Part shown: positions 16,848 to 61,687 of the stretch, one piece after another
Layout of the letters: each line of letters starts with the position of its first letter
Position numbering within the stretch: the stretch's first letter is position 1
Assembly: GCF_019059575.1 (NCBI RefSeq)
Contig: NW_024881533.1
Span: forward strand, 248,001 to 312,000
Reading direction: 5' to 3'
Origin: Amphibalanus amphitrite
Taxonomy: Eukaryota > Arthropoda > Thecostraca > Balanomorpha > Balanidae
Length of the DNA stretch: 64,000 nucleotides
The notes under the pieces: generated by a model
Database searches by the model: none
What the model was told of the DNA's origin: nothing
The model's input: the letters and a program-made list of their open reading frames with translations, nothing else
Position numbers and translations under genes: made by a program

Positions 16848-16989
16848 GCTCTAATAACTATAGCTATACCCACGCGGTATTACAGCACACGTCGCGCAGT
16901 CTCTCACCCCAGATGAGGGGGTCTAATAACTATAGCTATACCCACGCGTCTGCGGTGGTACAGCGCTCGTCGCGCAGTCTCTCACCCCA
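16848..16989 (-). repeat. Tandem duplication of the AIG1-like exon 4 end
   Basis: Two units of about 65-77 bp share AACTATAGCTATACCCACGCG...GTCGCGCAGTCTCTCACCCC, the sequence around the last codons and stop of the AIG1-like gene. A third, partial copy lies beyond the foldback element at about 15446-15482. The real stop codon is in the innermost copy (16936-16938). Confidence 0.75.
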
Positions 16990-17137
16990 GACGAGGTGGT
17001 CCAGCTTCTTGCCGAGGAGGTAGAGGCCGATGGCGAAGGCGAGGTTGGCAGCCATGAAGGCGATCCTCAGAGGCCACGAGAGCACCTTCATCACCCCGTA
17101 CACCCAGAGCTCGGCCACCAGAGCCAGGTACATGGTC
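16936..17137 (-). CDS. AIG1: AIG1-like exon 4 (terminal)
   Basis: Terminal coding exon. The acceptor is TCTGTTACAG|GACCATG; the split codon TG|G from exon 3 restores a tryptophan. It encodes the last 67 residues, two more hydrophobic membrane segments and a polar tail ending ...TTADAWV. It aligns with the C-terminal part of human AIG1 (GMWVYPFLEHI onwards). The first 35 bases of this exon, together with its splice acceptor, are reiterated 28 more times upstream in the intron. Confidence 0.9.
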
Positions 17138-19230
17138 CTGTAACAGACCACAGTCACACCCCATCAATTCGCACACCCATGACCCAGAGCTCGGCCACCA
17201 GAGCCAGGTACATGGTCCTGTAACAGACCACACCCCATCAATTCGCACACCCATGACCCAGAGCTCGGCCACCAGAGCCAGGTACATGGTCCTGTAACAG
17301 ACCACACCCCATCAATTCGCACACCCATGACCCAGAGCTCGGCCACCAGAGCCAGGTACATGGTCCTGCAACAGACCACACCCCATCAATTCGCACACCC
17401 ATGACCCAGAGCTCGGCCACCAGAGCCAGGTACATGGTCCTGCAACAGACCACACCCCATCAATTCGCACACCCATGACCCAGAGCTCGGCCACCAGAGC
17501 CAGGTACATGGTCCTGTAACAGACCACACCCCATCAATTCGCACACCCATGACCCAGAGCTCGGCCACCAGAGCCAGGTACATGGTCCTGTAACAGACCA
17601 CACCCCATCAATTCGCACACCCATGACCCAGAGCTCGGCCACCAGAGCCAGGTACATGGTCCTGTAACAGACCACACCCCATCAATTCGCACACCCATGA
17701 CCCAGAGCTCGGCCACCAGAGCCAGGTACATGGTCCTGTAACAGACCACACCCCATCAATTCGCACACCCATGACCCAGAGCTCGGCCACCAGAGCCAGG
17801 TACATGGTCCTGTAACAGACCACACCCCATCAATTCGCACACCCATGACCCAGAGCTCGGCCACCAGAGCCAGGTACATGGTCCTGTAACAGACCACACC
17901 CCATCAATTCGCACACCCATGACCCAGAGCTCGGCCACCAGAGCCAGGTACATGGTCCTGTAACAGACCACACCCCATCAATTCGCACACCCATGACCCA
18001 GAGCTCGGCCACCAGAGCCAGGTACATGGTCCTGTAACAGACCACACCCCATCAATTCGCACACCCATGACCCAGAGCTCGGCCACCAGAGCCAGGTACA
18101 TGGTCCTGTAACAGACCACACCCCATCAATTCGCACACCCATGACCCAGAGCTCGGCCACCAGAGCCAGGTACATGGTCCTGTAACAGACCACACCCCAT
18201 CAATTCGCACACCCATGACCCAGAGCTCGGCCACCAGAGCCAGGTACATGGTCCTGTAACAGACCACACCCCATCAATTCGCACACCCATGACCCAGAGC
18301 TCGGCCACCAGAGCCAGGTACATGGTCCTGTAACAGACCACACCCCATCAATTCGCACACCCATGACCCAGAGCTCGGCCACCAGAGCCAGGTACATGGT
18401 CCTGCAACAGACCACACCCCATCAATTCGCACACCCATGACCCAGAGCTCGGCCACCAGAGCCAGGTACATGGTCCTGTAACAGACCACACCCCATCAAT
18501 TCGCACACCCATGACCCAGAGCTCGGCCACCAGAGCCAGGTACATGGTCCTGTAACAGACCACACCCCATCAATTCGCACACCCATGACCCAGAGCTCGG
18601 CCACCAGAGCCAGGTACATGGTCCTGTAACAGACCACACCCCATCAATTCGCACACCCATGACCCAGAGCTCGGCCACCAGAGCCAGGTACATGGTCCTG
18701 TAACAGACCACACCCCATCAATTCGCACACCCATGACCCAGAGCTCGGCCACCAGAGCCAGGTACATGGTCCTGTAACAGACCACACCCCATCAATTCGC
18801 ACACCCATGACCCAGAGCTCGGCCACCAGAGCCAGGTACATGGTCCTGTAACAGACCACACCCCATCAATTCGCACACCCATGACCCAGAGCTCGGCCAC
18901 CAGAGCCAGGTACATGGTCCTGTAACAGACCACACCCCATCAATTCGCACACCCATGACCCAGAGCTCGGCCACCAGAGCCAGGTACATGGTCCTGTAAC
19001 AGACCACACCCCATCAATTCGCACACCCATGACCCAGAGCTCGGCCACCAGAGCCAGGTACATGGTCCTGTAACAGACCACACCCCATCAATTCGCACAC
19101 CCATGACCCAGAGCTCGGCCACCAGAGCCAGGTACATGGTCCTGTAACAGACCACACCCCATCAATTCGCACACCCATGACCCAGAGCTCGGCCACCAGA
19201 GCCAGGTACATGGTCCTGTAACAAACCACG
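17138..19230 (-). repeat. 74-bp minisatellite of splice acceptor plus exon start
   Basis: 28 near-identical 74-bp units (motif CCCAGAGCTC at 17183 through 19181, exactly 27 x 74 apart) plus the exon's own copy at 17103, offset by 80 bp because of a 6-bp insertion. On the coding strand each unit reads ...GGTGTGGTCTGTTACAG|GACCATGTACCTGGCT..., that is, a complete 3' splice site with the first 35 bases of exon 4. Units differ almost only by T/C before the AG (C-type at about 17370, 17444 and 18404). 74 is not divisible by 3, so each unit shifts frame; read from the correct phase, a stop appears in the third unit. Confidence 0.97.
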
Positions 19231-20690
19231 GAGCCACAGATCTAGCGCGTCGAACACAAACACCGCACAGGTCCCGACCAGGCACCGCGCCGGTGGACAG
19301 CAACAAATGCAAATCATCAATGTACAACGTTACCTACCACAACAATATCTGAGCCCATTGGATGCCTAAAGTCAGGGCGGATTTGTTTCACATGAACTAG
19401 GCTACATGTGCATGAAAGGAGTGACACAAGAGACAGACCTGTGCTAATAATCAGCCAAAAGCCAGGCGTATCCTGCTCGGTCAAATCGCAACGACTTCAC
19501 AACGAAATGATGAGCTGAATAACACATTTCATCAGTACTGTTAGTTGTTACTTTGCTTTATCATATGACACCAAGCTTGGCTATCAACAATGGAAAGTCG
19601 GAGACGCATACCTATCGAGATGAGGCATCATGTCAAGAGGCAAAAACACAAAACAAAAACAAAAACAGACAAACAGAACCGTGAGTGAGATGCCCTAAAT
19701 CGGAACCGAAATACGCGAGGCGGCGACGGTTTTATCAAGCGCACCCTTTTTTGTTGTTGAGATAGGCTTTCGATAGCCGCTCCACCGAACCCCCTTCCCG
19801 GGACTGAGGACAGTGGCACGCTACAAAGGTCGCGAACAAGTTTAATGTTTATCGATTGACAAGACCTTGAACAGTCGATCCTCCATCGGGGACGTGAACA
19901 TCAACACAAGGCGCGTCAACTTATGATCGAGGCAGAAACACCACACGTGGCATATCGTTGGCGATCATCTTTGCCCCTACTGACCATAACACTGAACGCG
20001 ACTGCAGTTCGGGTGATCGGCACATTTGGCGGAGTTTTTCCCGCCAACCGCCCTGCCTAGTGACACGCGGCGACCGGAGAGTCATCTCCCGCAGCCGGGC
20101 GATCGACCCCTGTCACTGGGCGACCTTCGGCCCCACCTTCGCTCCCACAGGCGCCAGTCAGCAGACAGAGTCATAAAAAGCGCTGCTGAGGAGGCGTATC
20201 TACAGAGGCCACATCAGTGCTACTTTCCTGAGCGAGAGTCAGCGATCCGAGAAGCCTTAGCTAATCCAAGCCGAAGTACATGCTCCGACAACTATCCCTG
20301 AACAGATTCGGGACTCAAGGAAAATACTGTTTATATTGAGTGAGCCAAACGTATCATTCGATAGATATTCTTTTTTTTTTGCTTAATAATCTTAATAAGA
20401 CAAAACATTAGTTTTCGATCGGAGCTTTCGAATCGGGTTCACTTTAAATAATCAGTGTAAACCAAAAGCGAGGATTAAAGGACAACAATTATTTCAAAGT
20501 GTCACCTATCGACAGTAAACTAGGGTTCGTACCTAAGGGCAATTTAGCTCCACAAACATCAGACGCCAGGAGTTTCGCTTCGAAACCGGGCAGGTGCCAG
20601 CAGTCTGTCAGGATCAACCGCGAGACTAAGTTACATACAGTGGCCTGCCTGTGGCCGAGTAGGGCTTTTCCCAGCAGAAAGGCAGAAAGA
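19231..20690. other. Intron 3 of the AIG1-like gene, no gene recognised
   Basis: Intronic for the minus-strand AIG1-like gene. It contains short open frames on both strands and a poly-T tract near 20370, but no domain, repeat family or RNA gene that I can support. Confidence 0.5.
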
Positions 20691-20717
20691 CAGACTCACC
20701 AGACTGTGGTAGTCTCT

Positions 20718-20946
20718 CTGTGACCAGGGGGGGGGACGGAGAGCGAGTCTGTAGACACTCAGCAGACTGCAGTAGTCTGTCTGTGACCGGGCGGGAGACG
20801 GGGAGGGAGTCTGTAGACACTCAGCAGACTACAGTAGTCTGTCTGTGACCGGGCGGGAGACTGGGAGGGAGTCTGTGGACACTCAGCAGACTGCAGTAGT
20901 CTGTCTGTGACCGGGCGGGAGACGGGGGCAGGGACTGCAGACGGAC
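20718..20946. repeat. 62-bp tandem repeat at the exon 3 donor
   Basis: About 3.5 units of 62 bp (CAGCAGACTG motif at 20760, 20822 and 20884). The array abuts the exon 3 splice donor. On the coding strand the real donor reads CTG|GTGAGTGTCC; the repeat copies read CTGAGTGTCC, the same intron start with the donor G altered, followed by related CAGACTCCCTCCC sequence. It appears to be an expansion of the first bases of the intron. Confidence 0.8.
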
Positions 20947-20952
20947 ACTCAC

Positions 20953-21170
20953 CAGGCCAGGTAGGCACCCAGGAAGAGCACCAGAAGCGCGAGCGACACG
21001 TGGTGACTGCTGAAGTGGTGCGGCACCAGCACCAGCTCGAGCAGCGCCAGCAGCACGGGCGCCGTGTGCACGCCGTGGTTCAGCGCCGACGGGTAGAAGA
21101 GGTCCATCACCTCCGGGAACACCAGCTCCCGGCTGATGGCGTACATGCCCCAGAACAGGATACACACCAC
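20953..21170 (-). CDS. AIG1: AIG1-like exon 3
   Basis: 218-bp internal exon, acceptor CGCCGGCAG|GTGGTGTG, donor CTG|GTGAGT. It encodes residues 106-177, including a hydrophobic segment, a short loop with FYPSALNHGVH, and another membrane segment. The second histidine of NHGVH (about His140) corresponds to the catalytic histidine (His134) of human AIG1, a threonine-dependent hydrolase of fatty acid esters of hydroxy fatty acids. Splice phase joins perfectly to exons 2 and 4. Confidence 0.93.
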
Positions 21171-21840: not shown

Positions 21841-21899
21841 AAATGATGGGTCTGGCTACAAAACAGATGGATGATGGATATTACCAGTGCTTTACGCGA

Positions 21900-27229: not shown

Positions 27230-28110
27230 TGAGGAGAACGCTTACCGCTCAGAAGGGCGGTGTGTTGTGAGGAGGGCGCCGACAGGTCAGGAGGGCGATG
27301 TACGATGAACGGCGACGCTGACTGGTCGGCAGGGCGATGCATGGTGATGAGGGCGCTATGCGTTGCAAAAGGCGCAGGCTGGTCAGGAGGGCGCTGAACG
27401 CGAAGATGTCGCCGACAGGCGTGAGGCGAGGGCGCTGACAGGTCAGGATGGCACTGCACGGTGATAAGAGCTGCGACAGATCTGGAGAACGCTGTCCGTG
27501 AAGAGGGCGCCGACAAGGCAGCAGGGCGCTGTATGGTGGGGAGAGCGCCGACAGGTCAGGAGGGCGCCCATGGTGAGGAGGATGCTGTACGATGAGAAGG
27601 GCACTATACGAGTGAAGAGGGCGCTGACAGGTCAGGAGGACACTGTATAAAGAGGAGGGCGCGGACAAGGTGAGGAAGGCAATGTACGGTCAGGAGGGCG
27701 CCGACAGGTCAGAAGGGCCGTCTACGGTGAAAAGGACACCGACTTGTCAGGAGGGCGCTGAACGTAGCAGGAGCCGGTCTGGAGGGCTTTGTATGGTTAG
27801 GAGGCCGCTATACAGTGAGGACTGCGACAGGTCAGGAGGGCACTGTACGGTGAAGAGGGCGCTATAATACGATAGGCGCTGCCAGGTCAGGAGGGCGCTG
27901 ACAAGTGTGGAGGGCGAGACAGATCAGGAGGATGCTGTGTGATAATGTCCATGAGGGCGCTAACTGGTCTGCCCGGAGGGCGCCGAATGTGAAGAGGGTG
28001 CCGACAGGCCAGGAGAGCGCTGAAGGGCGAGAAGGGTGCCGACAGATCAGAAGCGCGCCGAGCAGACAGAAGGGCGCTGAAGGTGAGCCGAGGGCGCTAG
28101 ATGGTCAGGT
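27230..28110. repeat. GACAGGTCAGGAGGGCGC minisatellite
   Basis: About 880 bp of degenerate tandem units of roughly 15-35 bp built on GACAGGTCAGGAGGGCGCTG and variants (TGTACGGTGAAGAGGGCG). No coding role; the open frames on both strands follow the repeat. 28111-29040 has no gene that I recognise. Confidence 0.85.
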
Positions 28111-29049
28111 GATTGGGAGTGGATATCCGGCATTTCAGGATTGTGGGTGCATCTTCACCCACAAAGAGATATAAAATTGTAAATCTGGGCGCCAGTACCG
28201 CATGATGACGTCGCAATGGCTTACCGTCGAGGGCGACTAGAGTGCTGGACACTGAAAAGGCGCCATCGGCGCACAGAATGATCGTGGAAGGCGCTGCATC
28301 CAGGGCGCCTTCGGCGCCTGGATGGCGTCTTTCCAGAGGGCGCCTGCTAGATTTGGGAGGGGCTAAAGCCCTAGTGTGCCCCTCCCCCTTGGCTGCGCCC
28401 CTGAGTCCTTTGTCTAGCGATTTTCGAAGCATGTATCGCGTCCGTAGGGGCCTTGGGAGCTGCCGGTGACCACAGGGGCCTTATAAGGACCCTGATGACT
28501 CGGGAGGGTACCCGTAGGCCGTATACGGCTTACGGGTCCCGAGTCATGTGGGCCATATCACCACAGGGCACCGCATCTTTTTCGAGATAAATGACCGTTC
28601 TTAAGCGTGTCGCATTTTCCTGAGCATGATCTGGCGTTTACAGCCTGACGGCCCCTCTCCTGTCCGGCTGACAGCTTACTGACAAGCCACCTGGCGATCG
28701 CCAACTCAACCCTAATTACGACGTTGTCCGATAGGTGGCGGGTCATACAATCCCAGTCAGGACAAGGGATTCTCATTATTATTTTGCTATCATATTTTCC
28801 CCCCTTTTAAAGTCATTTAAAAGCGCTATTGCACAAGTAATTTTTCGATTAGCAGCGATTCCAGCGGCCGCATCAGGGTCCGGATGGAGCCAGGGAGCGT
28901 ATGCTCCGGTGACGTCACCGTAGTGTTGCAGATTTGTAACATTAGCGAGCCCGGACGATCTTACCTAACTTATACGGCCTTGGTCACGGCCAAGTCACGG
29001 CCTTGGTGTGTTGCAGTTGTGGCACAATATACAGTCATAATAAAAATAT

Positions 29050-29935: not shown

Positions 29936-30835
29936 CCTTATCGGTATTAGTATATATTAGGTCCGAATGGACAATTGTGACGCTGTTGATACAAATATGT
30001 AACAGCAAAAAATTTAGGTTTTAGGTTAGGTTAGGTTGTAGGTTTGTAGGTTTTAGGTTTTAGGTTGTAGGTTTGTAGGTTAGGTTAGGTTAGGTTGTAG
30101 GTTTGTAGGTTGTAGGTTGGTAGGTTGTAGGTAAATAGGTAAGGTTAGGTCAGGTTTGATTATGTTTTTTCTTTTATTTCCAAGACACATAAGTATCATT
30201 TTTGGATTCAGAGTGCTGTTCACGGGCACCTGCGGTAGCTGCGGTAGCTGCGGCTCGGCGGTCAGCCGGGTAATGACGTCACAGAAAGTGGGGATGGGGC
30301 AGGTGGTGTGACGTCATACGGCTGCGGTCGGCTTCGGTCGCCTGCGTCTCCTGCGGTCGAAACGATCCGACCGCAGCGGCCGCAGGAACCATTTGTCATA
30401 CAAAGTGGCGCGGCAGTTGCGCATTCGTGTTACTTGGGCGCAAAATTGACACAGCCGCCGCAGACGAACGCGTGATGACGTATACACAAGTGGGCGGGAC
30501 TTTCAGCCTGCGATCTACCGCAGCTACCGCAGTCACCGCAGGTGCCCGTGAACAGCACTCAGGATGTCAAATAATGTAAGAATATGAAAACTTTATCTTT
30601 TAACAGTCACTCGGACTCAATGTATACTTTTACCACCTTATCTACCTACTTACCTACAACCTACCAACCTACAACCTGCAAACCTACAACCTAACAACCG
30701 TCAACCTACCAACCTAAAACCTACTAACCTACAAACTAACCTAATTACAACCTAAAATTTCCGCTGTTTCGTGTTCATATCAACAGCGCCTCAATTGTAG
30801 ATCGGACCTTATCTTGACAAATACCGTTGGGACCT
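29936..30835. mobile_element. Palindromic element with TTAGG-like arms
   Basis: The outer arms are inverted repeats (AGGTCCGAATGGACAATTG...GCTGTTGATA on the left; its inverse around 30770-30825 on the right). Inside each arm is a degenerate run of GGTTAGGTTAGGTTGTAGG (30010-30160) or its complement CCTACAACCTACCAACC (30640-30755), resembling the arthropod TTAGG telomere repeat. A separate 348-bp MITE (30212-30559) lies at the centre. Confidence 0.7.
30212..30559. mobile_element. 348-bp MITE, GTGCTGTTCACGGGC termini
   Basis: Terminal inverted repeats of about 40 bp (AGTGCTGTTCACGGGCACC... / ...GGTGCCCGTGAACAGCACT) followed by CTGCGGTAGCTGCGG. The general plan (CTGTTCA termini, GCGGTCGCTGCGG subterminal repeats, GTGACGTCAT inside) matches the GGGCCCTGTTCATGAACCC elements at 47.0-56.8 kb, so they are probably distant relatives. 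Confidence 0.85.
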
Positions 30836-33589: not shown

Positions 33590-33692
33590 TACAATGCTTG
33601 AGGTAAACTGTCATGACAATGCTATGATTGCTGACCAATAGAATGCTTGAGGTACTGTCATGACATTGCTATGATTGCTGACCAATGCTGTT
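33590..33692 (+). repeat. Short tandem duplication before ECH1 exon
   Basis: Two copies of AATGCTTGAGGTA(AA)CTGTCATGACA(A/T)TGCTATGATTGCTGACCAAT lie directly upstream of the first visible ECH1 exon acceptor. 33310-33590 has no recognisable feature. Confidence 0.8.
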
Positions 33693-33704: not shown

Positions 33705-33861
33705 CTCAACCTGCGCTAAGGCAGACAGTGAGAATGTCCAGTTCACTGGCTGACTATGCCCAGTACAAGACCCTGAATGTAACTCAGCCATCAGAGTATG
33801 TTGTTCACGTGGAAATGAATCGTCCAGAAAAGCTCAATGCCCTCAACAAGGAAATGTGGAA
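33705..33861 (+). CDS. ECH1: ECH1, first visible coding exon
   Basis: Delta(3,5)-delta(2,4)-dienoyl-CoA isomerase, a crotonase-fold enzyme of mitochondrial and peroxisomal beta-oxidation that shifts 3,5-dienoyl-CoA to 2,4-dienoyl-CoA. The acceptor is TTTGTTGCAG|CTC at 33704; the first in-frame ATG is 33734 (MSSSLADYAQYKTL); donor ATGTGGAA|GTAAGT. VVHVEMNRPEKLNALNKEMW is the conserved crotonase N-terminus (human HVLHVQLNRPNKRNAMNK). The frame stays open upstream of the ATG through ...QPALRQTVR, an arginine-bearing stretch that suggests a targeting peptide begun in a further upstream exon that I did not find. From this ATG the five exons join in phase to 284 aa with no stop. Confidence 0.95.
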
Positions 33862-34273: not shown

Positions 34274-34490
34274 GGACCTGGGCGTGTGCTTCCAGCAGCT
34301 GCACGAGGACCCGGCGTGCCGCGCCGTGGTGCTCAGCGGCGCCGGCCGCCTCTTCTGCGCCGGTATCGACCTGGCCGACCTGGCAGCGCTCGGCGGCCTG
34401 GCCATGGGCGACGGCGACGCCGCCAGGAAGGCGTTCCAGATGCACCCCATCATCAAACGCTTCCAGGACTGGATCACCGACCTGGAACGG
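34274..34490 (+). CDS. ECH1: ECH1 exon, oxyanion-hole region
   Basis: 217 bp, acceptor CCCTGTCGCAG|GGACCTG, donor CTGGAACGG|GTGGGT. It encodes DLGVCFQQL...CRAVVLSGAGRLFCAGIDLADL, matching human CRAVVISGAGKMFTAGIDLMDM, the loop that supplies one oxyanion-hole amide and CoA contacts. Third-position GC is very high. Confidence 0.97.
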
Positions 34491-34789: not shown

Positions 34790-35360
34790 ACTCTCGCTGT
34801 ACCTCCCGCTGTACCTCCTGCTGTACCCCACGCTTTACCTCCTGGTGTACCTCCCGCTGTATGTACCTCCCGCTGTACCTCCCGCTGTACCTCCCGCGGT
34901 ACCTCCCGCTGTACCTCCCGCGGTACCTCCCGCTGTACCTCCCGCGGTACCTCCCGCGGTACCTCACGCTTTACCTCCCGCTGTACTTCACCGTACCTTT
35001 CGCTATACTTACCGCTGTATGCACCTCCCGCTGTACCTCCCGCATTACCCTGCTGTACCTCCCGCTGTACCTTACCTCATCCCCGCTGTACCACACCGTA
35101 CCTCCTGCTGTTCGTCACCGTACCTGCAGCTGTACCTCCCGCTGTACCTCCCGCGGTATCTCCCGCTGTACCTCACTGTACCTCCCGCTGTACCTCCCGC
35201 TGTACCTCACCGTACCTTCCACCGTACCTCCCGCTGTACCTTACCGCACCTCCCGCTGCACCTGACCGTACCTCCCGCTGTACCTCCCGCTGTACCTCCC
35301 GCTATACTTCCCGCTGTATGCACCTCCCGCTATACCTCCCGCTGTACCTGACCGCTCGTC
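34790..35360 (+). repeat. TACCTCCCGCTG minisatellite ending at an ECH1 acceptor
   Basis: About 570 bp of 12-bp units (CCCGCTGTACCT) with variants (CCGCGGTACCT, CACCGTACCT). The array runs to within about 12 bp of the exon acceptor (CCCGCCGGTCAG|TGCCG) and supplies its pyrimidine-rich tract. Open frames over it are repeat artefacts. Confidence 0.93.
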
Positions 35361-35371
35361 CCGCCGGTCAG

Positions 35372-35498
35372 TGCCGTAAGCCGGTGGTGGCCGCCATCCA
35401 CGGCGGCTGCGTGGGCGGCGGCGTGGACCTGGTGACGGCCGCCGACATCCGACTCTGCTCCCAGGACGCCTTCTTCCAGGTCAAGGAGGTCGACATCG
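35372..35498 (+). CDS. ECH1: ECH1 exon, catalytic Asp and Glu
   Basis: 127 bp, acceptor GGTCAG|TGCCG, donor GACATCG|GTGAGT. It encodes CRKPVVAAIHGGCVGGGVDL and then ADIRLCSQDAFFQVKEVDI. Asp134 (GGGVD) and Glu154 (VKEVD) match rat Asp176 and Glu196, with the same spacing of 20; rat Asp204 is matched in the next exon. All active-site residues are present. Confidence 0.98.
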
Positions 35499-36304: not shown

Positions 36305-36655
36305 CCTGTATTCCCAGGTCTGACCTCTGCCTCCCGCGCTCCCAGGTCTGACCTCTGCCTCCCCGTGCTCCCAGGTCTGTCTGACCTCTGCCTCCCCGCG
36401 CTCCCAGGTCTGACCTCTGCCTCCCCGTGCTCCCAGGTCTGTCTGACCTCTGCCTCCCCGCGCTCCCAGGTCTGTCTGACCTCTGCCTCCCCGCGCTCCC
36501 AGGTCTGACCTCTGCCTCCCCGTGCTCCCAGGTCTGTCTGACCTCTGCCTCCCCGCGCTCCCAGGTCTGACCTCTGCCTCCCCGTGCTCCCAGGTCTGAC
36601 CTCTGCTTCCCCGCGCTCCCAGGTCTGTCTGACCTCTGCCTCCCCGCGCTCCCAG
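36305..36655 (+). repeat. Tandem repeat of the ECH1 acceptor (12 AG|GT sites)
   Basis: Units of 29 and 33 bp, CTCCCAG|GTCTG(TCTG)ACCTCTGCCTCCCCGCG. The true exon starts at the last copy. Counting it, CCCAGGTCTG occurs 12 times, each with its own C/T-rich tract, so every unit carries a full 3' splice site followed by GT. Confidence 0.96.
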
Positions 36656-36809
36656 GTCTGGCGGCCGACGTGGGCACCCTGCAGCGACTACCGAAGGTGA
36701 TCGGCAGCCGCAGTCTGGTGAACGAGCTGTGTCTGACGGCGCGCCGGCTCGGCTCCCAAGAGGCGCTGCAGTGCGGCCTGGTTAGCCGGGTGCTCAGCGA
36801 CCGGCACAG
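36656..36809 (+). CDS. ECH1: ECH1 exon, catalytic Asp162
   Basis: 154 bp, acceptor GCTCCCAG|GTCTGGCG, donor CGGCACAG|GTCAGT. It encodes LAADVGTLQRLPKVIGSRSL and then CGLVSRVLSDRH, almost identical to human LAADVGTLQRLPKVIG. Asp162 equals rat Asp204. The donor chosen is the first of many tandem copies; joining it to the last exon gives VLSDRHSLTAAALSLAA, the same length as human VFPDKEVMLDAALALAA, which supports this choice. Confidence 0.97.
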
Positions 36810-37290
36810 GTCAGTACAGGGTGCTCCCAGCGACCGACACAGATCAGTACAGGGTGCTCCCAGCGACCGGCACAGGTCAGTGCTCAGTGACCGGCACAGG
36901 TCAGTACAGGGTGCTCCCAGCGACCGGCACAGGTCAGTACAGGGTGCTCAGCGACCGGCACAGGTCAGTACAGGGTGCTCCCAGCGACCGGCACAGGTCA
37001 GTACAGGGTGCTCCCAGCGACCGACACAGGTCAGTACAGGGTGCTCAGCGACCGGCACAGGTCAGTACAGGGTGCTCCCAGCGACCGGCACAGGTCAGTA
37101 CAGGGTGCTCCCAGCGACCGACACAGGTCAGAACAGGGTGCTCAGCGACCGGCACAAGTCAGTTATACAGTGCTCAGTGGCAGTTCAGGTCAGTTCAGGT
37201 CTCAGCGACCGGCACAGGTCTGTGCAGGGTGACCAGCGACTGGCACAGGTCAGTGCTCAGCGACCGGCACAGGTCAGTATTCAGCGCGCC
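36789..37290 (+). repeat. Tandem repeat of the ECH1 exon end plus donor
   Basis: About 16 units of roughly 36-38 bp, each GTGCTC(CC)AGCGACCGGCACAG|GTCAGTACAGG. The first unit is real exon plus its donor; the following ones repeat the final exon bases and the 5' splice site, mostly preserving AG|GTCAG. Later units decay. 37291-38040 shows no gene I recognise apart from a (GA)n run near 37851. Confidence 0.95.
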
Positions 37291-38214: not shown

Positions 38215-38375
38215 TGACATACCGCAGTCTGACACCGACTGCCCTCCCCCAGTCTGACACCGACTGCCCTCTCTCAGTCTGACGCTGACTGCCCTCCCTC
38301 AGTCTGACACCGACTGCCCTCCCCCAGTCTGACACCGACTGCCCTCTCTCAGTCTGACGCTGACTGCCCTCCCTT
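38215..38375 (+). repeat. CAGTCTGACACTGACTGCCCTCCCT repeat, left part
   Basis: Six units of about 24-25 bp. Each contains a pyrimidine run and CAG|TCTGAC, the acceptor and first bases of the last ECH1 exon 1.5 kb downstream. It was split from the right part (39579-39882) by the LINE insertion. The 75 bases before the LINE are repeated exactly after it. Confidence 0.93.
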
Positions 38376-39458
38376 ACGAGTGACCATCAGTTCGGTTTTA
38401 AGGATGGACACTCCACTGATATGGCTGTTTTTGCTTTCAAAGAAATTGTTGATCATTATCTTCGAAACAGTAGTCCTGTTTTTGTTTGTTTTCTTGATGC
38501 TCGAAAGGCTTTTGACCGGGTTAACCATTGGACCTTGTTTGATAAACTCTTGCGTCGAGGTGTTGATGCCACTATTGTGCAACTATTAGCTTCGTGGTAT
38601 GGTTCGCAAACATTCCGTGTGATGTGGGGCACCTGTTTGTCGGAAGGCTTTCATGTGTCCAATGGCGTCAGGCAAGGTGGTATCTTGTCCCCATATCTTT
38701 TCAACGTGTACATTGATGAGCTGTCTAAAAAATTAGACAGTAGTGGTGCTGGTTGTCATTATTTGGGCAGTGTTAATCACCTTTGTTATGCAGATGACAT
38801 GGTACTGCTATCGCCAACGCCTCAAGGACTGCAAAAATTGCTTGACATTTGTGCTAGATATGCCGATGCACATGATATTGTTTTCAATGTAAAAAAGACG
38901 GTATGCATGGCTATTCTGCCCAATTTGTTTAAAAATATGTCTTTACCAGATATAGTCTTGAATGGTACTGTGCTCACTTATGTGAATAGGTATAAATATC
39001 TTGGCTTTGAAGTGAGCAATGTCCCAACAAAATCTGATGATCTGGAGGTGCAGCACCAGTATCGTCTTCTGTGTTGTCGAGCCAATTCGCTGATCAGAAA
39101 GTTCTCTCTCTGTACTTATCAAGTGAAGAAGTATTTGTATTCCATGTATTGCTCGAATGTTTCTGGTGTTCATCTTTGGCATTCTCATCGTGCTGCTGTT
39201 CTGCGTAAATTCGTAGTTTGTTTCAATAACGCTGCTAGAATGTTCTTTGGTTATGACCGCTTTAGTAGTGCCTCATCTATGTATGTGAATGAGCGCATTG
39301 ATAACTTCTGGGCTATGTACCGGAAAGCTGTTTTCGGCTTCATGACTCGTATCGGACAATCTCGCAATGGCATCATCGCATCCCTATTTCATGGGGATCT
39401 TCGCGTTTTGTCGTCAATTCGACAGACCTGGTCCACTGCACTGTTTGCATATAGCTGA
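38376..39458 (+). mobile_element. 5'-truncated LINE, reverse transcriptase part of ORF2
   Basis: The open frame starts at the repeat junction (DHQFGFKDGHSTDMAVF) and runs about 360 residues. It shows non-LTR reverse-transcriptase motifs in order: FLDARKAFDRVNH, then NGVRQGGILSPYLFN, then LCYADDMVLLSP (catalytic YADD), then KTVCM and YKYLGFEV. No endonuclease upstream, so it is 5' truncated. The core is uninterrupted, implying recent insertion. A CAxx/T-rich tail, poly-T (about 39516) and (CT)n follow before the flanking minisatellite resumes. It lies in sense orientation within the last ECH1 intron. Confidence 0.93.
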
Positions 39459-39578
39459 TTGTATTTAGCATATAGCCGATCACTGATCAGTGATCTTTTA
39501 CTTACATGTGCCTGTTTTTTTTTTTTTTTTATTGGACCTCGAGTCTGCAAATATAGAAATCTCTCTCTCTCTCTCTCT

Positions 39579-39882
39579 CTCAGTCTGACACCGACTGCCC
39601 TCCCCCAGTCTGACACCGACTGCCCTCTCTCAGTCTGACGCTGACTGCCCTCCCTCAGTCTGACAGTGTCTACCCTCCCTCAGTCTGACACTGACTGCTC
39701 TCCCTCAGTCTGACACTGACAGTGACTGCCATCCCTCAGTCTGACACTGTCTGCCCTCGCTCTGTCTGACACTGACTGCCCTCCCTCAGTCTGACAGTGT
39801 CTGCCCTCCCTCAGTCTGACACCACTAACACTGACTGCCCTCCCTCAGTCTGACACCACTGACACTGACTGCGATCCCTCAG
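39579..39882 (+). repeat. Tandem repeat of the last ECH1 acceptor, right part
   Basis: Eleven CAG|TCTGAC copies, the last being the functional acceptor. Each unit is CACTGACTGCCCTCCCTCAG|TCTGA, a pyrimidine tract, AG and the first exon bases. Together with the left part there are about 17 acceptor copies. Confidence 0.95.
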
Positions 39883-40111
39883 TCTGACGGCGGCGGCGCT
39901 CAGTCTGGCCGCCACCATCGCCTCCAAGTCGCCGGTGGCGGTGCAGTCGACCAAGCTGAACCTGACCTACTCGCGCGACCACTCTGTCCAGGAGGGATTG
40001 GACCACATGGTGGCCTGGAACGGCGTCATGCTCCAGTCGGAGGACATTATGAAGGCCGCCACCGCCGCCATGGACCGCAAGGCGCCGCCGCCCGACTTCG
40101 CCAAACTGTAG
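39883..40111 (+). CDS. ECH1: ECH1 terminal exon with AKL peroxisomal signal
   Basis: 229 bp, acceptor ATCCCTCAG|TCTGACGG, TAG at 40109-40111. It encodes LTAAALSLAATIASKSPVAV, QSTKLNLTYSRDHSVQEGL and ends PPPDFAKL, matching human ISSKSPVAVQSTKVNLLYSRDHSV and its C-terminal SKL. AKL is an accepted variant of the PTS1 peroxisomal signal, so peroxisomal import is likely. Confidence 0.97.
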
Positions 40112-41207: not shown

Positions 41208-44003
41208 TATACAGTCAGTCTTGAAACTACCGCACATGTGCGGTAGATCCATCAAGCCCGACCGAGGAAGGGTTGTTGAATTTGAGAGTCACTGAACCAA
41301 CTGACATCATCATCCATCCCCAGGTCAATTTGTTCGGTAACTCGAATTTAGCAGCCTTTTTCAGATGTTGATCAAGACAGCCCATATTCAGCCCAGATTC
41401 AGCCCAGATTCGGGACACATCCGATCAAGCTGAAACTCGCACACAATGTAGGTCCTGACATGCCCAATCCACAGTCCGAGACATTCGGCGGCACTCCGAG
41501 CCGTTTGACCTACAGAGGTCAGCAAAGGTCACGTGGCCCAAATTTACACAGCAGATTGTGGCCCACCCAGTAGAGCTAGAGCGCTAAAAATGGCACCAAT
41601 CGACTCGCCAGCATCAAATCTTACTTTCCCAACACCCATTTGACTTCTCAAGGTCATGCGATGACCTAAGGTCATTTGTGGGCTATGTCGAAAATACAGT
41701 TGCACAGCAGTTTTCGAGTAGAGGAATTGACCGAATTCCAAATCAAAGCAGATCATCGGGTAGGCCATAGGCCGTAGTAACTTTCCTTGAAAACCGCTTC
41801 TCGATATGTGACCCTGCTTGACCTCGGCAGGGCAAAATGTACAAATAAACGACACTCCATATGTCGCAGCCCGGATTCAGCCCAGATTCGGGACACCTCC
41901 GATCAAGCTGAAACTCGCACACAATGTAGGCCATGACATGCCCAATCCACAGTCCGAGTCATTCAGCGGCACTCCCAGCCGTTTGACCTACAGAGGTCAG
42001 CAAAGGTCACGTGGCCCAAATTTGCACAGCAGATTGTGGCCCACCCAGTAGAGCTAGAGCGCTAAAAATGGCACCAATCGACTCGCCAGCATCTAATCTT
42101 ACTTTCCCAACACCCATTTGACCTCTCAAGGTCATGCGATGACCTAAGGTCATTTGTGGGCTATGTCGAAAATACACTTGCACAGCAGTTTTCGAGTAGA
42201 GGAATTGACCGAATTCGTAATCAAAGCACATCATGTCGATTGGTGCCATGTCATGGCCCATAGGCCGTAGTAACTTTCCTTAAAAACCGCGTCTCGATAT
42301 GTGACCCCGTTTGACCTCGGCAGGGCAAAATGTACAAATAAACGACACTCCATACGTCGCAGCCCGGATTCAGCCCAGATTCGGGACACCTCCGATCAAG
42401 CTGAAACTCGCACACAATGTAGGTCCTGACATGCCCAATCCACAGTTCGAGTCATTCGGCGGCACTCCCAGCCGTTTGACCTACAGAGGTCAGCAAAGGT
42501 CACGTGGCCCAAATTTGCACACCAGATTGTGGCCCACCCAGTAGAGCTAGAGCGCTAAAAATGGCACTAATCAACTCGCCAGCATCTAATCTTACTTTCC
42601 CTAAACCCATTTGACCTCTCAAGGTCATGCGAGGTCATATTTTCGACATGCCCACAAATGACCTTAGGTCATCACATGACCTTGAGAGGTCAAATGGGTG
42701 TTGGGAAAGTAAGATTAGATGCTGGCGAGTCGATTGGTGCCATTTTTAGCGCTCTAACTCTACTGGGTGGGCCACAATCTGCTGTGCAAATTTGGGCCAC
42801 GTGACCTTTGCTGACCTCTGCAGGTTAAACGGCTCGGAGTGCCGCCGAATGAATCAGACTGTGGATTGGGCATGTCAGGACCTACATTGTGTGCGAGTTT
42901 CAGCTTGATCGGAGGTGTCCCGAATCTGGGCTGAATCCGGGCTGCGACGTATGGAGTGTCGTTTATTTGTACATTTTGCCCTGCCGAGGTCAAACGGGGT
43001 CACATATCGAGAAGCGGTTTTCAAGGAAAGTTACTATGGCCTATGGGCTACCCGATGATGTGCTTTGATTTGGAATTCGGTCAATCTCTCTACTCGAAAA
43101 CTGCTGTGTAAGTGTATTTTCGACATAGCCCACAAATGACCTTAGGTCATCGCATGACCTTGAGAGGTCAAATGGGTGTTGGGAAAGTAAGATTAGATGC
43201 TGGCGAGTCGATTGGTGCCTTTTTTAGCGCTCTAGCTCTACTGGGTGGGCCACAATCTGCTGTGCAAATTTGGGCCACGTGACCTTTGCTGACCTCTGTA
43301 GGTCAAACGACTTGGAGTACCGCCAAATGACTCGGACTGTGGATTGGACATGTCAGGACCTACATTGTGTGCGAGTTTCAGCTTGATCAGAGGTGTCCCG
43401 AATCTGGGCTGAATCCGGGCTGCGACGTATGGAGTGTCGTTTATTTGTACATTTTGCCCTGCCGAGGTCAAACGGGGTCACATATCGAGAAGCGGTTTTT
43501 AAGGAAAGTTACTGCGGCCTATGGGCTACCCGATGATCTGCTTTGATTTGGAATTCGGTCAATTCCTCTACTCGAAAACTGCTGTGTAACTGTATTTTCG
43601 ACATAGCCCACAAATGACCTTAGGTCATCGCATGACCTCGAGAGGTCAAATGGGTGTTGGGAAAGTAAGATTAGATGCTGGCGAGTCGATTGGTGCCATT
43701 TTTAGCGCTCTAGCTCTACTGGGTGGGCCACAATCTGCTGTGCAAATTTGGGCCACGTGACCTTTGCTGACCTCTGTAGGTCAAACGGCTGGGAGTGCCG
43801 ACGAATGACTCGGACTGTGGATTGGGTATGTCAGGACCTACATTGTGTGCGAGTTTCAGCTTGATCGGAGGTGTCCCGAATCTGGGCTGAATCCGGGCTG
43901 AATCCGGGCTGAATATGGGCTGTCTTGACGGACATTTTTTTTTTCAGTTGGGCTTTATGGATTCATCGCACCGATGCACTTCTCTTTCAAGACTGACTAT
44001 ACA
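41208..44003. mobile_element. Large foldback element: 3+3 inverted 480-bp units
   Basis: Outer inverted ends TATACAGTCAGTCTTGAAA / TTTCAAGACTGACTATA, and GATCAAGACAGCCCATATTC (41368) / GAATATGGGCTGTCTTGAC (43906). The left half has three tandem units of about 478-493 bp (CCCAGATTCGGGAC at 41403, 41881 and 42374). The orientation flips near 42640 and three units follow in reverse. Each unit carries AAGGTCATGCGATGACCTAAGGTCA, AGGTCACGTGG and GAGGTCAAA. The similar open frames on both strands are just the repeat read in each direction. Confidence 0.9.
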
Positions 44004-45149: not shown

Positions 45150-45615
45150 TGTGTATGAATCGGCGGCGCGAAGCGCCGCAAAAATTTGCAAAAAAAAGTT
45201 GTCAAAACACAGCTCTAAAACACAAATATTACAACCTTTTTAGCATGCTAGTACAAGCCGGAGTTCCTTCACAGTACACATATGAATTCCGATTCAATTT
45301 GACACGGTTGGTGTTATTACAGTCACTGTTATTTCTCTCTTATTGATTGGTGTATAAATCGGCGGCGCGAAGCGCCGAGAAAATTTGCAAAAGAATGTGT
45401 CGAAACACAGCTCCAAAACACAAATTTTACCACCCTTTTAGCATTGCAGTACAAGCCGGAGTTCCTTTACAGCACACATATGAATTCTGATTCAATTTGA
45501 CACGGTTGGTTTATGTAATTACAGTCAAGATTTCGTATTGACCTGTACGTATGTACATAAATCGGCGGCGCGAAGCGCCGCGAAAAATTTGCAAAAACAT
45601 TTGTCAAAACACAGA
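45150..45615 (+). repeat. 200-bp tandem repeat
   Basis: About 2.3 units. The motif CGGCGGCGCGAAGCGCCG (a hairpin) recurs at about 45160, 45360 and 45563, followed by AAATTTGCAAAA, CAAAACACAG, CAAGCCGGAGTTCCTT and GAATTC(C/T)GATTCAATTTGACACGG. No coding role. Confidence 0.88.
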
Positions 45616-46110
45616 GGGGGCCTCCTCTCTACAGAGGACCACCGATCTCTACTGCGGGCCTCCTCTTTTCACAGGGCCTCTTAACTACAGAAGCTACAGG
45701 GCCTCCTCTCTACAGAGGGCTTCCTCTCTACTGAGGGTCTCTCCCTTTAAGAGGGCCTCCTTTACAGAGGGCCTCCTCTCTTCAAAGAGCCAGAGGACCT
45801 CATCTCTGCAAAGGGCCTCCTCTCTTCAGAGGGCCTCTTCTCTACAGAGGGCCTCCTTTCTTCAGAGGGCCTCTTCTCTACAGCGGGTCTCCACTCTTCA
45901 GAGGGCCTTCTGCATTCAGGCGGTCTCCTTTCCACAGAGGGCCTCCTCTCTACACAGGGCCTCCTCTCTACATAGAGCCTTCTCTCTACAGCAGGTCTCC
46001 TCTCTACAGAGGGCCTCCTCTTTAAAGGGGTCTCCTCTCTACAGGGGGCCTCCTCTCTACTGAGGGCCTCCTTTCTACAGAGGACCTCCTCTACAGAGGG
46101 CCTCCTACCT
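45615..46110 (+). repeat. GGGCCTCCTCTCTACAGA minisatellite
   Basis: About 500 bp of degenerate 16-18-bp units, GGGCCTCCTCTCTACAGA. The third 200-bp unit stops after ACACAG and passes directly into this array. It gives a serine/leucine-rich open frame with no independent support. 46111-47019 has no gene; 46615-46685 carries G- and C-runs that can pair. Confidence 0.9.
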
Positions 46111-47019
46111 ACTGAGGAGTCAGAGGGGCCCTAGCGGTCAGACACAGACACTAGCGGTTATTCACTGGAGGCCCCAGGAAGTAAGAAGGGCCCTAGCTGT
46201 CAGGCTGGTCAGAGGGCCCTGAATGTCCTGACGTGATTTTTGGGATTCCCGTGAATTTCTTTCGCCTCAGACGTGATTTTGACCTGCCAGGGCCCAGGGG
46301 CACTAAAAATAAAACAAACAAAATAAAAAATGAAAATAGGACATCACCAAAATTAAGTGACCGAAATCCGTTGAGTTTTTAATTTTGCGTATAGGTAGGG
46401 GCACCACGAATTAAATTCATGACCATCCCCTTGGAGTTTTCCTGGATCATCCCCTGGTGCTCGCACGGTTGAGACAAAAACGAGTAAGATTCTGGTCTTC
46501 AATACGCCTTTTCACGCAACACGATCCAGAAAAACAAAGGTATTAGCTCAGAAGTGTTTGACAGGTGATTTTGAGCATGCAAGACGGCGTCTATAGCGCA
46601 TTTAGGTCTTCGGCTTTTGGGGGGGGTCAAATGACCCTCTCAGACCTTTTGGGGGGGGTCATGACCCCGTGGACCCCCCCCAGGATCCGCCAGTGAATGT
46701 GGGCGAGACTTCCTGGAAAGGAATCCAGGTAAATGATTGAGGAATGCCCCTACTGGTAGAACGCTTGAAAAATACAAAAATGAATTTTATCAATGTTCAA
46801 TAAAGTATGTTCATATCTGATGCTATGTATGATATATATGAAATATGTATGATCATAGATAACTTGAATGCTGTTATCATCTTTCTTATCTTAATGCTGA
46901 TTCATGTTATCTATGGTATGATATGTGATGTATGTGTGATACCGTCTTATCCCGCACCGTAGACAGTGTTTACAATTGCTTCACGTGCAAAGAGAGAAAA
47001 TTATTAGCTGTCGTTTAAG

Positions 47020-58089: not shown

Positions 58090-58955
58090 AACGCCTTTTG
58101 GGCGAAGAACGAGCGAGCGAGATAGTGAGCCCTGCACGTGCAGAAGGGCGAGAGGGTACTTTCAACGGGCTTGTGCAAAGCACCCTTCTAACCGGTCGCT
58201 AGCGGTGTACCAAATTTGAACGCAATCGGCCCAGCCGTTCCTGAGATCTGGAAGCGGCATTCTGCACGTGCGCACGTGCAAACGGGGTCCAAAATGACTT
58301 TTGCACGGCACCCTACTAACCGGTCCCCAACCGTGTACCAAATTTGAGCGCAATCGGCCCAGCCGTTCTCAAGATCTGGAAACGCCCCCTGCACGTGGGC
58401 ACGTGCAGTAGCACCCTAACCGCAACACATGGGAATGCATTGCCTGGTGGGTGCCTACTTGTATGCCAAGTTTCAGCGAAATCGCCCCAGTAATTACCGA
58501 GTTACTGAAATGGGAACAAATTTGGCACCTCTTATTGTTGTATTTTGCACGTGCAGTGGGGGTCACTCACATAGATGAAGAGTATCCGACCTTTCGTAGA
58601 AGGGATGCAGCTACCCTATAAAAATGACCGCAAGACAATCGCTCAAGCCGCTGCTGAGATATGGGCCTCTCAAAATCATTACTTTTGCAAAACTGCTTGA
58701 ACACCCTTGACTTTTCACGTGGCACGTGCCACAGCGGTCACTGAGATGTATCAAAAGTAGCCAATTACGCGGTAGAAGGGATGGGGCTACCCAGCAAAAA
58801 AGACCGCAGGCCATTCAGTCCAGCGGTTGCTGAGATATAAGCCTCTCAAAAGCGTTACAGGCCGGGCCGGGCCGGGCCGGGCCGGGCCGCTCATACTGAG
58901 ATTTTTCCGTTATATTGAAAAGACTTCGCTTCGCTCGCTGCGCTCGCTCGCTCGC
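58090..58955. mobile_element. CACGTG-rich element with GCGAGCGA termini
   Basis: About 870 bp from GCGAAGAACGAGCGAGCGAG to CGCTGCGCTCGCTCGCTCGC. It contains repeated GCACGTGC palindromes (for example CTGCACGTGCAGAAG, GTGCGCACGTGCAAAC, GTGGCACGTGCCAC) and four to five GGGCC repeats near its right end. The right 500 bp matches the partial copy at 53605-54140. No protein-coding role. Confidence 0.75.
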
Positions 58956-59153
58956 AACAACCTATCGCCTAGTAATGTCCAATCTACGTTTGGCAAGAGT
59001 CGTTGTAGGCGTTGTTGTTTTTGTTACTTTCATTTTAGCCCTATAATAATATTGCATTTAAATTTGAATGCATTTTTAGGATTCCGGACTGTATGTGTAC
59101 CACTGAACTCTAATATATACTGGAAGGAGCATTGGTGACTTGTTTTTGTCTAT

Positions 59154-59321
59154 CGATTTCCGCCATGTTGTGTATACCAGAAATATAAATTGCATGTACG
59201 GTAGCAGAGGTGCAGTTAAGTGAGAGGTACACTACTCAAAAGTGCTGCTGCTTCATGCTTGCAGTTTAATTGCAGTGATCAACTTTTCAAGACTTTGGTA
59301 TACACAACATGGCGGAAATCG
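59154..59321. mobile_element. 168-bp MITE, CGATTTCCGCCATG termini
   Basis: Inverted ends CGATTTCCGCCATGTTGTGT... / ...ACACAACATGGCGGAAATCG, about 26 bp and nearly perfect. The interior has CATGCTTGCAGTTTAATTGC. No gene was recognised in 59322-59740. Confidence 0.85.
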
Positions 59322-59739
59322 TTAGACATTCTGGCCCATATACGGCCAAGGCGAGTGCCTCCCCCTGATGTGTACCTAATGTGTATCCATGGTGTGCCTA
59401 TATTTCGGGATGATGCAAAATGCCATAACTCGTGCCAACAATCAAAACGTCCGAAATATGAGTGTTATTTATTCCTAAGACTAAAGACGCGTTGCATTTT
59501 GCTTTAAAGTTATTTATATTTTTATTTTCTTGATTAAATTCAATATTTTTTTTTCCGCAACATCATAAACATTTTTTAAATGTATCCAATAGGAATGATA
59601 AAATGACTTAAATTAAAGCAGCGTCAACCAAAATCAGAAAACCTAACAATGGTAGAAAACGTGTAGTGTGTAACGTTTAATTCCTTTTTATTGATTCGCT
59701 GGCCCCTCCGCCTTCCCGCGCTGTTCGTTCTGTCTGGAT

Positions 59740-59935
59740 TGCCCGCTTGGTCTAGTAGAGCCCCAGCCTGCGCCGCCGCCCGTCTAGCAGAGCCCCAGTC
59801 TGCGCCGCTGCCCGTCAGCCTGCGCCGCTGCCCGTCTAGTAGAGCCCCAGCCTGCGCCGCTGCTCGGCAGCCTGCGCCGCTGCTCGTCTAGTAGAGCCCC
59901 AGCCTGCGCCGCTGCTCGTCGATGTCCTGCTGCCG
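59740..59935 (-). repeat. Minisatellite made of the exon end and stop codon
   Basis: About five to six units of 20-35 bp, (AGTAGAGCCCCAGCCTGCGCCGCTGC)CCGTCT and shortened forms. On the minus strand each reads GAGCAGCGGCGCAGGCTGGGGCTCTACTAGAC, the last codons (EQRRRLGLY stop) of the exon at 59888-60129. The copies lie beyond the stop codon. Confidence 0.9.
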
Positions 59936-60129
59936 GCGGCGCCGGTTGGCCCGCGCGATGATGTCTCTGATGTCGTCGAGCTCGGCGCTGTGACCGACGC
60001 CGCTGCCGTCGGCGGCGAGCGGGAAGCGCGGGTCGAGCAGGTCTCGGCCGGTGGCCGGCTGCGCCCAGTGCGGGTGCGCGCCGGAGCCGGCGGGGGTCAC
60101 GCCCGGCACCGGGCGACTGTCGTGGTCAC
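59888..60129 (-). CDS. Terminal exon B of an unidentified gene
   Basis: Minus-strand exon, acceptor CTGGTCGGCAG|GTGACCACG, ending TAG at 59888-59890. It reads DHDSRPVPGVTPAG, then a proline/glycine-rich segment, then AELDDIRDIIARANRRRRQQ and ends RRRLGLY. The charged helix DIRDIIARANRRRR and the opening GDH are shared with exon A at 61389-61687, and the splice phase is the same, so they are duplicated alternative last exons. I do not recognise the family. Confidence 0.6.
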
Positions 60130-60299
60130 CTGCCGACCAGCGGCACACAGAGTGGTCACACGGGCGGGCGGCGGTTACACGGACGAGCGGCGAGTACTCG
60201 AGGACGCTTTGGGGGCTAAACTAACTAGTGGCAGCGCCACCTGTATGTCTCCACTGCACTACTGACGAGGTACAGAGATATTCTAAACATATAGCTATA

Positions 60300-61388
60300 G
60301 ACTAGACAGTACGTTAAGTTCTATCGACATTAATAACGTGCATCTGTGCATGTGTAACAAACACTGTCCTCTACCACATAAACAAGGTCACTGTCCCGGG
60401 CGTGCCTTGGTTTTGGAGCACGTTTATTGTTCAAGCCGTTTTGTATGCCTACATAGTACCTATGCACATTGCACACAATGGTAAACCACAACAATATTTT
60501 CTGAGTTTTCACACTGCCTAACCTGCATCTATAGTCAGCCGGTAACAGTTTAAAGTTAAAGTTAGGGTACATTATCACTAAAATGACATTAGGCATATTT
60601 TCAACGTTTGTATTCTGCATAAAAGATGTTGGGCATGCCAAGACTGAATCAGAGATTAATGCATTGCATGCGTATCAAGTGGCAGGTTCCATGCTTAGAA
60701 TAAAGGGTAGTCACTTCTTATTTCCCTGGTTTCCCGCTTGCCGATGATGATGCCGCTTAGGTGCTTACCGTTCCATGGCGATCAGCTCCCTCCTTCGCTG
60801 TCGGCTTTCGTAACGTTGAATGCACGATATTCGTGTTCAGCAGGCTTAGAGCGACGGCGATCATGAATGTACATAAGTGGAATGTAACGCTGCGCTCTGG
60901 TTCAGCTATGATTCAACTTACATTTACGAAGATTCTTTTGATTTGTGTCTCGCATTGTTGAATGTATGCAGGTTACGAATGTTGTACTCCGCAATCTGCG
61001 TAGTAATTGCCGCAGTGACACGGCTTGTTTTAGCTGTACCGTTATCCAGGACTGTGTGTTGTCGGGTACCTCGATCACTTGGACACCACACCGTGTATTT
61101 ATTGGTAAAACACCATAGCCACAGCGCTGTCAGCGTCAGTCCTGTCGTCGTTCGGTGCAGTCAGCTCGGCCAGCTCAGCTCAGCTCAGCTCAGCGCCGGC
61201 GCAGCTCGTCAGTCGTCCGCCTATACTCATCCGCCGACCGAGCGGCGGGCCGCGGCCCTCCTCCCTGCTCGGCGCCGGGTCGCGGGGACCCGCAGCGCCG
61301 CGGGCGCCGCCGCCGCCCCCAGGCGGGTCAGCCGCCAGACGGCGGCGCCCGCGACCACCTCGCGCGCGCGCGCACGCGCTCGCGCCGC
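60300..61388. other. Intron between alternative last exons; no other gene
   Basis: AT-rich 60300-60960 then GC-rich 61140-61388, with (GCTCA)n near 61175 and (CGCG)n near 61362. Open frames on the plus strand at 60877-61826 are shadows of the minus-strand exon and lack support. Confidence 0.45.
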
Positions 61389-61687
61389 TCAGAAGCGCGC
61401 CATGCGCCGGTCGGCGTCGGCCTTGAAGTCGCGGTGGCGCCGGCGCGCCCGGTCGATGATGTCGCGCACGTCGTCGGGCAGCGTGACGCCGTCGAGCGGG
61501 TCGGGCGCCGTGAATGGCTCCTCCTTGTCCTTCTTGAAGAAGGGGTCGCTGAAGGGGTCCTTGCCGGCGCCGAGCGGCGACGGCGGCTCGGCGGCGGCGG
61601 CGGCGCTCGGTGGCGTGCGCAGTCGGCTGCGCGGCGCCGCCGGCAGCGTCGGCTCGCCGCGCACCGGCGTCGTGTCGCCGTGGTCAC
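61389..61687 (-). CDS. Terminal exon A of an unidentified gene
   Basis: Minus-strand exon, acceptor GTGACCCCAG|GTGACCAC, stop at 61389-61391. It begins DHGDTTPVRGEPTLPA, has an alanine-rich middle, then KDPFSDPFFKKDKEEPF, then DGVTLPDDVRDIIDRARRRH and ends ADRRMARF. DVRDIIDRARRRH parallels DIRDIIARANRRR in exon B. Length 99 residues versus about 80. The high conservation of splice phase and C-terminal helix argues that both are real coding exons of one gene lying to the right of the window or in unrecognised upstream exons. Confidence 0.6.

Follow-up and report, generated by a model that had tools for sequence, protein, structure and literature searches.

Do minisatellites grow from the edges of exons and carry the splice site along with them? 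The question arises in a 64,000-nucleotide stretch of the barnacle Amphibalanus amphitrite (NCBI RefSeq assembly GCF_019059575.1, contig NW_024881533.1, positions 248,001 to 312,000 of the forward strand; hereafter the window, numbered from its first letter). A first-pass annotation had described five arrays here, copying exon edges in an AIG1-like gene, in ECH1 and in the last exon of a third gene. All five were recovered with Tandem Repeats Finder (TRF), the copied sites are present in each, and the copy numbers hold: 29 at the acceptor of AIG1 exon 4, 12 at the acceptor of ECH1 exon 4, 16 at its donor (given as about 16), 18 at the acceptor of ECH1 exon 5 (about 17) and five plus one variant at the stop codon (5-6). 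Boundary sequence is repeated in tandem arrays at 6 of 17 modelled splice junctions, five identified by score and the AIG1 exon 3 donor by eye; the six comprise three acceptors and three donors, and both exon ends are affected. We consider it likely that these arrays are mirage-type minisatellites, a type known from amphioxus, produced by local tandem duplication and expansion and tolerated through exon-proximal splicing.

Splice boundaries and the arrays that copy them

The boundary set comes from two neighbouring genes. The AIG1/ADTRP-like gene, spliced from five exons on the minus strand, is identical in 247 of 247 residues to the A. amphitrite database protein P0121, annotated as androgen-dependent TFPI-regulating protein-like of the AIG1 family. 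ECH1, on the plus strand, forms a single open frame in which every intron is GT-AG. Its model shares 84% identity with a protein of Pollicipes pollicipes, its best matches among solved structures are dienoyl-CoA isomerases (1dci, 2vre and 8sk6 cover most of its length), and exons 3-5 are identical (169/169) to P0127, a partial ECH1 of A. amphitrite. No leader exon of ECH1 was found with the one search pattern tried. Same-species proteins confirm 12 of the 17 boundaries, eight through P0121 and four through P0127, and all six copied boundaries belong to these twelve. The basis for the other five (acceptors and donors of ECH1 exons 1 and 2, acceptor of exon 3) is solely frame, GT-AG and the Pollicipes protein. 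Among ten open reading frames (ORFs) compared with Pfam, two matched AIG1, one RVT_1 and seven nothing, and at a cut-off of E 0.01 no family matched any of 55 further ORFs selected from the 253 in the window. The set therefore stays at 17 boundaries in two genes.

The acceptor of AIG1 exon 4 is present in 29 copies, the exon's own included, and 24 of the 28 upstream units are identical. Each 74-bp unit holds the acceptor TTACAG (TTGCAG in three) with 36 nt of exon 4, and the AG is intact in all 29 copies. The inner units of this array, the one scored for it, are homogeneous by eye while the outermost diverge, the exon-side unit being 80 bp long and the intron-side flank divergent. Derivation of the unit's 24-nt spacer from exon 4 was rejected as weak (P 0.04). 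The donor of the same exon is also copied, which the earlier list of edges, otherwise sound in its arrays, had missed. A further copy of this donor is interrupted by a foldback transposon, the other half of the copy lying at about 15440-15481; ACCC flanks the transposon on either side and the joined flanks resemble the intact donor copies (by eye). The array at the exon 3 donor, formerly said to abut the junction, does reach it but goes beyond abutting, as it copies the site. Its outermost copies read CTG/GTGAGT and three inner ones CTG/CTGAGT (by eye; slashes mark the junction), which means that GT was lost inside the array.

Exon 4 of ECH1 carries arrays at both borders. Its acceptor is represented by 12 sites (the exon itself and the first, divergent copy included), all of which keep AG; its donor (36809) is represented by 16, of which 15 have GT and 12 read exactly CAGGTCAGT (CAG/GTCAGT). 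In the two blocks at the exon 5 acceptor (39883), CAG is retained at 17 of 18 sites. The blocks are separated by a reverse transcriptase element, probably of the type without long terminal repeats (non-LTR), and the same three array units flank it on either side. The 12-bp array before the exon at 35372, which had likewise been placed against the junction, contains no splice-site copy and leaves a gap of 22 nt to the exon. Upstream of exon 1, a 47-bp unit occurs twice at 33593-33686, ending 18 nt before the exon (33705) and containing the branch-point-like word CTGAC. The units of different arrays look unrelated by eye within the window, in keeping with the earlier view of repeated events, and the proposal that introns are enlarged and splice sites multiplied is likewise supported.

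Of the three unrelated genes counted previously, AIG1 and ECH1 are identified by homology, whereas the third is known from two similar terminal exons only. Both of these, A and B, begin after AG with GTGACCAC and have the common motif DD-RDII-RA-RRR; no Pfam family matched either. They are probably alternative ends of one gene, or paralogs. An AATAAA-like word follows each. The array at exon B has five exact cores, a sixth variant core seen by eye, and four stops.

Table 1. Genes, border arrays and inserted elements, in window coordinates
Feature	Position	Strand	Evidence
AIG1/ADTRP-like exons	24588-24412, 24061-23924, 21170-20953, 17137-16986, 15053-14995	-	spliced model matched to P0121
AIG1/ADTRP-like exon 4, both borders copied by arrays	16986..17137	-	P0121 identity of 5-exon model
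74-bp array, AIG1 exon 4 acceptor	17102..19229	-	TRF, 28.7 copies
78-bp array, 2.2 copies, spans AIG1 exon 4 donor CTGGG/GTGAGA	16834..17001	-	TRF and sequence
Foldback transposon within further AIG1 exon 4 donor copy	15482..16833	+	inverted ends of at least 320 bp, 96.6% alike
62-bp array, AIG1 exon 3 donor	20694..20953	-	TRF 20694-20927; extended to donor 20953 by eye
ECH1 exons	33705-33861, 34274-34490, 35372-35498, 36656-36809, 39883-40111	+	model
ECH1 exon 4, arrays at 5' and 3' borders	36656..36809	+	model; P0127 identity, exons 3-5
12-bp array, stops 22 nt upstream of ECH1 exon 3, no splice site copied	34791..35349	+	TRF and gene model
28-33-bp array, ECH1 exon 4 acceptor sites CAG/GTCTG, extends 5 nt into exon	36318..36660	+	TRF and site splitting
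24-33-bp array, ECH1 exon 4 donor, begins 22 nt inside exon, runs into intron	36788..37286	+	TRF and site splitting
25-bp array, left block at ECH1 exon 5 acceptor, 6 CAG/TCTGA	38225..38374	+	TRF and site splitting
25-34-bp array, right block, 11 CAG/TCTGA and one CTG/TCTGA, 6 nt into exon 5	39575..39888	+	TRF and site splitting
Reverse transcriptase element inside ECH1 exon 5 acceptor array, limits approximate	38375..39574	+	Pfam RVT_1 E 6.4e-31, ORF 38364-39458
Terminal exon A of third gene	61687-61389	-	sequence similarity to exon B
Terminal exon B of third gene	60129-59888	-	sequence similarity to exon A
32/52-bp array, copies last 10 codons and stop of terminal exon B	59750..59920	-	TRF and core search

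Use of the copied sites and proposed origin

In the A. amphitrite database proteins P0121, P0122 and P0127, the exon-proximal site is used at the copied borders that each covers. Judged by translation, this site alone would yield the normal protein, and most other copies would change or break it, among them 28 of the 29 AIG1 exon 4 acceptors. The full-length frame is kept by 1 of 29 AIG1 exon 4 acceptors, by 2 of 12 acceptors of ECH1 exon 4 and by 1 of 12 of exon 5, where the right block was tested. At the ECH1 exon 4 donor the frame is kept by 6 of the 14 sites tested, which are of the form GTC[A/T]GT; five of the six would insert 22, 30, 41, 116 or 136 residues.

The scenario that follows, including its mechanism, sequence of events and near-neutrality, is our inference. 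A short local duplication would span the exon-intron border, or the border between exon and 3' untranslated region (3'UTR), at some borders between two identical words of 5-6 bases about one unit apart. Such a duplication would survive because splicing keeps to the exon-adjacent site, the extra copy being left in intron or 3'UTR sequence. The duplicated border copy would then be amplified by slippage or unequal exchange, and transposons would insert later into some arrays. Direct words at unit spacing were seen by eye at three ECH1 borders, namely GTCTG (exon 4 acceptor), TCTGAC (exon 5 acceptor) and TCAGCG (exon 4 donor), and would fit duplication between short direct repeats. An origin through R-loops was discarded on visual inspection: the coding strand is rich in G for the AIG1 unit, but for the unit at the ECH1 exon 4 acceptor it is rich in C.

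Several points weigh against an origin in border duplications tolerated by splicing. The 5-6-base words could be chance matches, and the use of exon-proximal sites is taken from three database protein models. P0127, moreover, is incomplete, and at the ECH1 exon 3 array, which copies no site, its model translates the array's end instead of splicing there. The analysis rests on one sequence, from a single genome and a single allele, and array coverage alone gives no excess at borders.

Exon borders as preferred sites

The first-pass annotation had gone further and proposed exon borders as preferred nucleation points. The contrary reading, to which we give somewhat less than an even chance, is that there is no preference: the region is rich in minisatellites, selection keeps exon bodies clean, and the border arrays are duplications that reached an exon by chance and were tolerated. 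Tandem arrays make up 21% of the window outside a 144-bp satellite (11022 of 52600 bases), and at such density the coverage of boundaries alone is as expected. Five of the 17 lie inside the 41 TRF arrays of the main coverage test, against 3.5 expected under rotation (p 0.32) or 3.3 under random placement (p 0.26), and the stricter sets of 25 and 21 arrays give p 0.22-0.25. There is no clear excess at junctions in the local-copy test either, where a score of at least 19 is reached by the local copies of 5 of the 17 junction 30-mers; copies as good as those of the two weakest copied junctions were found for 20.1% and 20.9% of 1500 random 30-mers, the latter figure applying to the threshold score. 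Of the 41 arrays, 32 are not in the edge list, although these include the one at 33593-33686, which stops 18 nt short of an ECH1 exon. The exon side of the copied borders is GC-rich (0.62-0.73, with 0.43-0.77 at the others), so that local composition may matter.

Against this stand the tests that address the origin of the arrays, since a border can be part of the unit only if the initial duplication already extended across it. When the arrays were collapsed to one unit, five boundaries fell within the unit against 0.28-0.99 expected (P 1e-5 to 3.5e-3, dependent on the period and score cuts), and 6 of 10 intragenic arrays span a boundary against 0.55-0.85 expected (P 5e-6 to 4e-5). For the intragenic test the arrays were entered by hand, the ECH1 exon 5 blocks were merged and the AIG1 exon 3 donor array was counted as a match, which it was not in the local-copy, coverage and collapsed-unit tests. 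Array ends, too, lie between -25 and +60 nt of 7 of 17 boundaries against 1.0 expected (p 0.00125 by rotation, 0 of 4000 random placements). The seven are the acceptors of ECH1 exons 1, 3, 4 and 5, the donor of ECH1 exon 4 and both borders of AIG1 exon 4; the arrays at the first two of these carry no copy of a splice site. All four tests are post hoc, the window was picked for showing the pattern, and the matches fall on four exons of two genes. Two genes cannot represent a genome; a preference of minisatellites for exon borders is suggested and not shown, and the proposal of preferred nucleation points is not established.

A more specific possibility is seeding of the arrays by the splice signals: the branch-point-like word CTGAC shares letters with the start of the exon (TCTGAC and TCTGG), and a duplication between the two would yield a full 3' splice-site module with a period equal to the distance from branch point to exon. 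CTGAC does lie 15-30 nt upstream of 5 of 5 ECH1 exons, so that each unit in two ECH1 acceptor arrays, those of exons 4 and 5, holds a branch-point-like word, pyrimidines and AG, and these units stretch from a CTGAC-type word to the first exon bases. Only these two arrays fit, however; all four acceptors in AIG1 lack CTGAC, and the unit at AIG1 exon 4 includes 36 nt of exon. We consider such seeding unlikely. We also think it unlikely that barnacle exon borders are true birth hot spots of minisatellites, with splice-signal words (branch point, exon start, donor) seeding duplication and introns growing outward from exons, carrying reserve splice sites that would steadily supply alternative or new exons. 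The arrays could also be traces of introns that arose when exon sequence containing AGGT was duplicated in tandem, a proposed route of intron gain that the first-pass annotation had cited as background; AGGT occurs in nearly all units at both borders of ECH1 exon 4. In such intron gain both intron ends come from the duplicated exon segment, whereas here the two ends of each intron are unrelated by inspection; the link is not supported for these introns, and this origin appears very improbable. Collapsed or falsely expanded repeats in the assembly are hinted at by the partial P0127, which starts with translated sequence from the last part of the ECH1 exon 3 array and differs there from the window by one residue, so that the P0127 model or its contig seems to break in that array. 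Yet copies vary within most arrays, two arrays contain transposons, and same-species proteins match the exon structure on either side of the arrays, making an artefact very improbable; the 74-bp AIG1 array has the least certain copy number.

Splice-like words were also counted in the 32 arrays outside the edge list and in non-array sequence. Donor-like words reach 0.93 against 0.46 per kb and acceptor-like words 3.41 against 0.82, each excess stemming mostly from two arrays (at least two matches in 2 of 32), while CTGAC or CTAAC reaches 6.35 against 3.99 per kb, with 10 of 32 arrays contributing. Splice-likeness may thus extend beyond the known exon edges. A degenerate 19-bp array at 27230-28130 (TRF 27498-28077, wider by eye), with no known exon adjoining, has donor-like words in two TRF blocks (4 and 2 matches) and is possibly the edge of an unrecognised exon. 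An 18-bp array at 45615-46117 (TRF 45698-46117, wider by eye), again with no known exon adjoining, consists of acceptor-like units such as CTCCTCTCTACAG and contains 19 matches to a pyrimidine tract followed by AG.

Other repeats were observed in the window. The 144-bp satellite occupies positions 1-11352 in about 79 copies and changes orientation once, near 2750/2760; 20 of its matches are plus and 61 minus. A 478-493-bp tandem array at 41389-43911 forms a head-to-head palindrome about 42635, its halves being about 96-97% alike in opposite orientation. TTAGGT-rich repeats at 30015-30156 and 30644-30754, in opposite orientation and about 490 bp apart, are perhaps the ends of a foldback element.

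Known systems and wider meaning

The arrangement is already known from amphioxus genes, a precedent missing from the first-pass annotation; what is new is the animal, an arthropod, and the number of affected edges. Passages of PMC3087553 describe mirages as minisatellite-like duplications at 5' and 3' exon borders of globins, and earlier of Adh3, with regular splicing suggested by reverse transcription PCR (RT-PCR), length variation and homogenised inner copies; passages of PMC3902484 add similar repeats in PGBD5 and name troponin C as a mirage gene. The mirage genes named across the two are Adh3, the globins BflGb6 and BflGb9, and troponin C. As far as these accounts go, the barnacle arrays resemble mirages in spanning exon-intron borders at either exon end, in their many copies with intact AG or GT (the three inner AIG1 exon 3 donor copies without GT being the exception) and in inner homogenisation, and their units of 24-78 bp compare with 10-160 bp in amphioxus. 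They differ in the host, in affecting six borders of two neighbouring genes, in the stop-codon array and in the transposons within two arrays. Length polymorphism and RT-PCR data belong to the amphioxus mirages, whereas the barnacle arrays are known from one sequence.

Minisatellites at exon borders are likewise reported, in passages of PMC2812944, from human segmentally duplicated genes. These internal tandem repeats are similar in being minisatellite-sized, in their place at exon borders and in changing gene structure, but concern recent paralogs with alternative or new introns, and for new introns the barnacle arrays give no evidence. Intron gain of the Rogers type through AGGT tandem duplication, discussed in part of PMC4974935, has splice-site letters inside the tandem duplication in common with the barnacle arrays, which by contrast lengthen existing introns. 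Introners are a single sequence family spread over many introns; within the window, the barnacle units look unrelated to each other. In worms, intron minisatellites have been linked to alternative splicing, according to a section of PMC4039745. The sections seen of PMC8270832 (a barnacle genome) and PMC3152781 (Daphnia tandem repeats) contain nothing on border arrays, and a limited search of the openly licensed PMC literature brought up no boundary-spanning arrays in any barnacle.

Mirages have been described, in the passages cited, from cephalochordates, and the presence of several in two neighbouring barnacle genes suggests that the process may be more widespread. The finding allows a direct test of whether mutation is concentrated at exon borders, making introns longer and splice sites more numerous. 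With 12-29 nearly identical splice sites in competition, the loci also lend themselves to the study of how the spliceosome chooses the exon-proximal one. Moreover, such arrays may account for some of the broken gene models in repeat-rich genomes.

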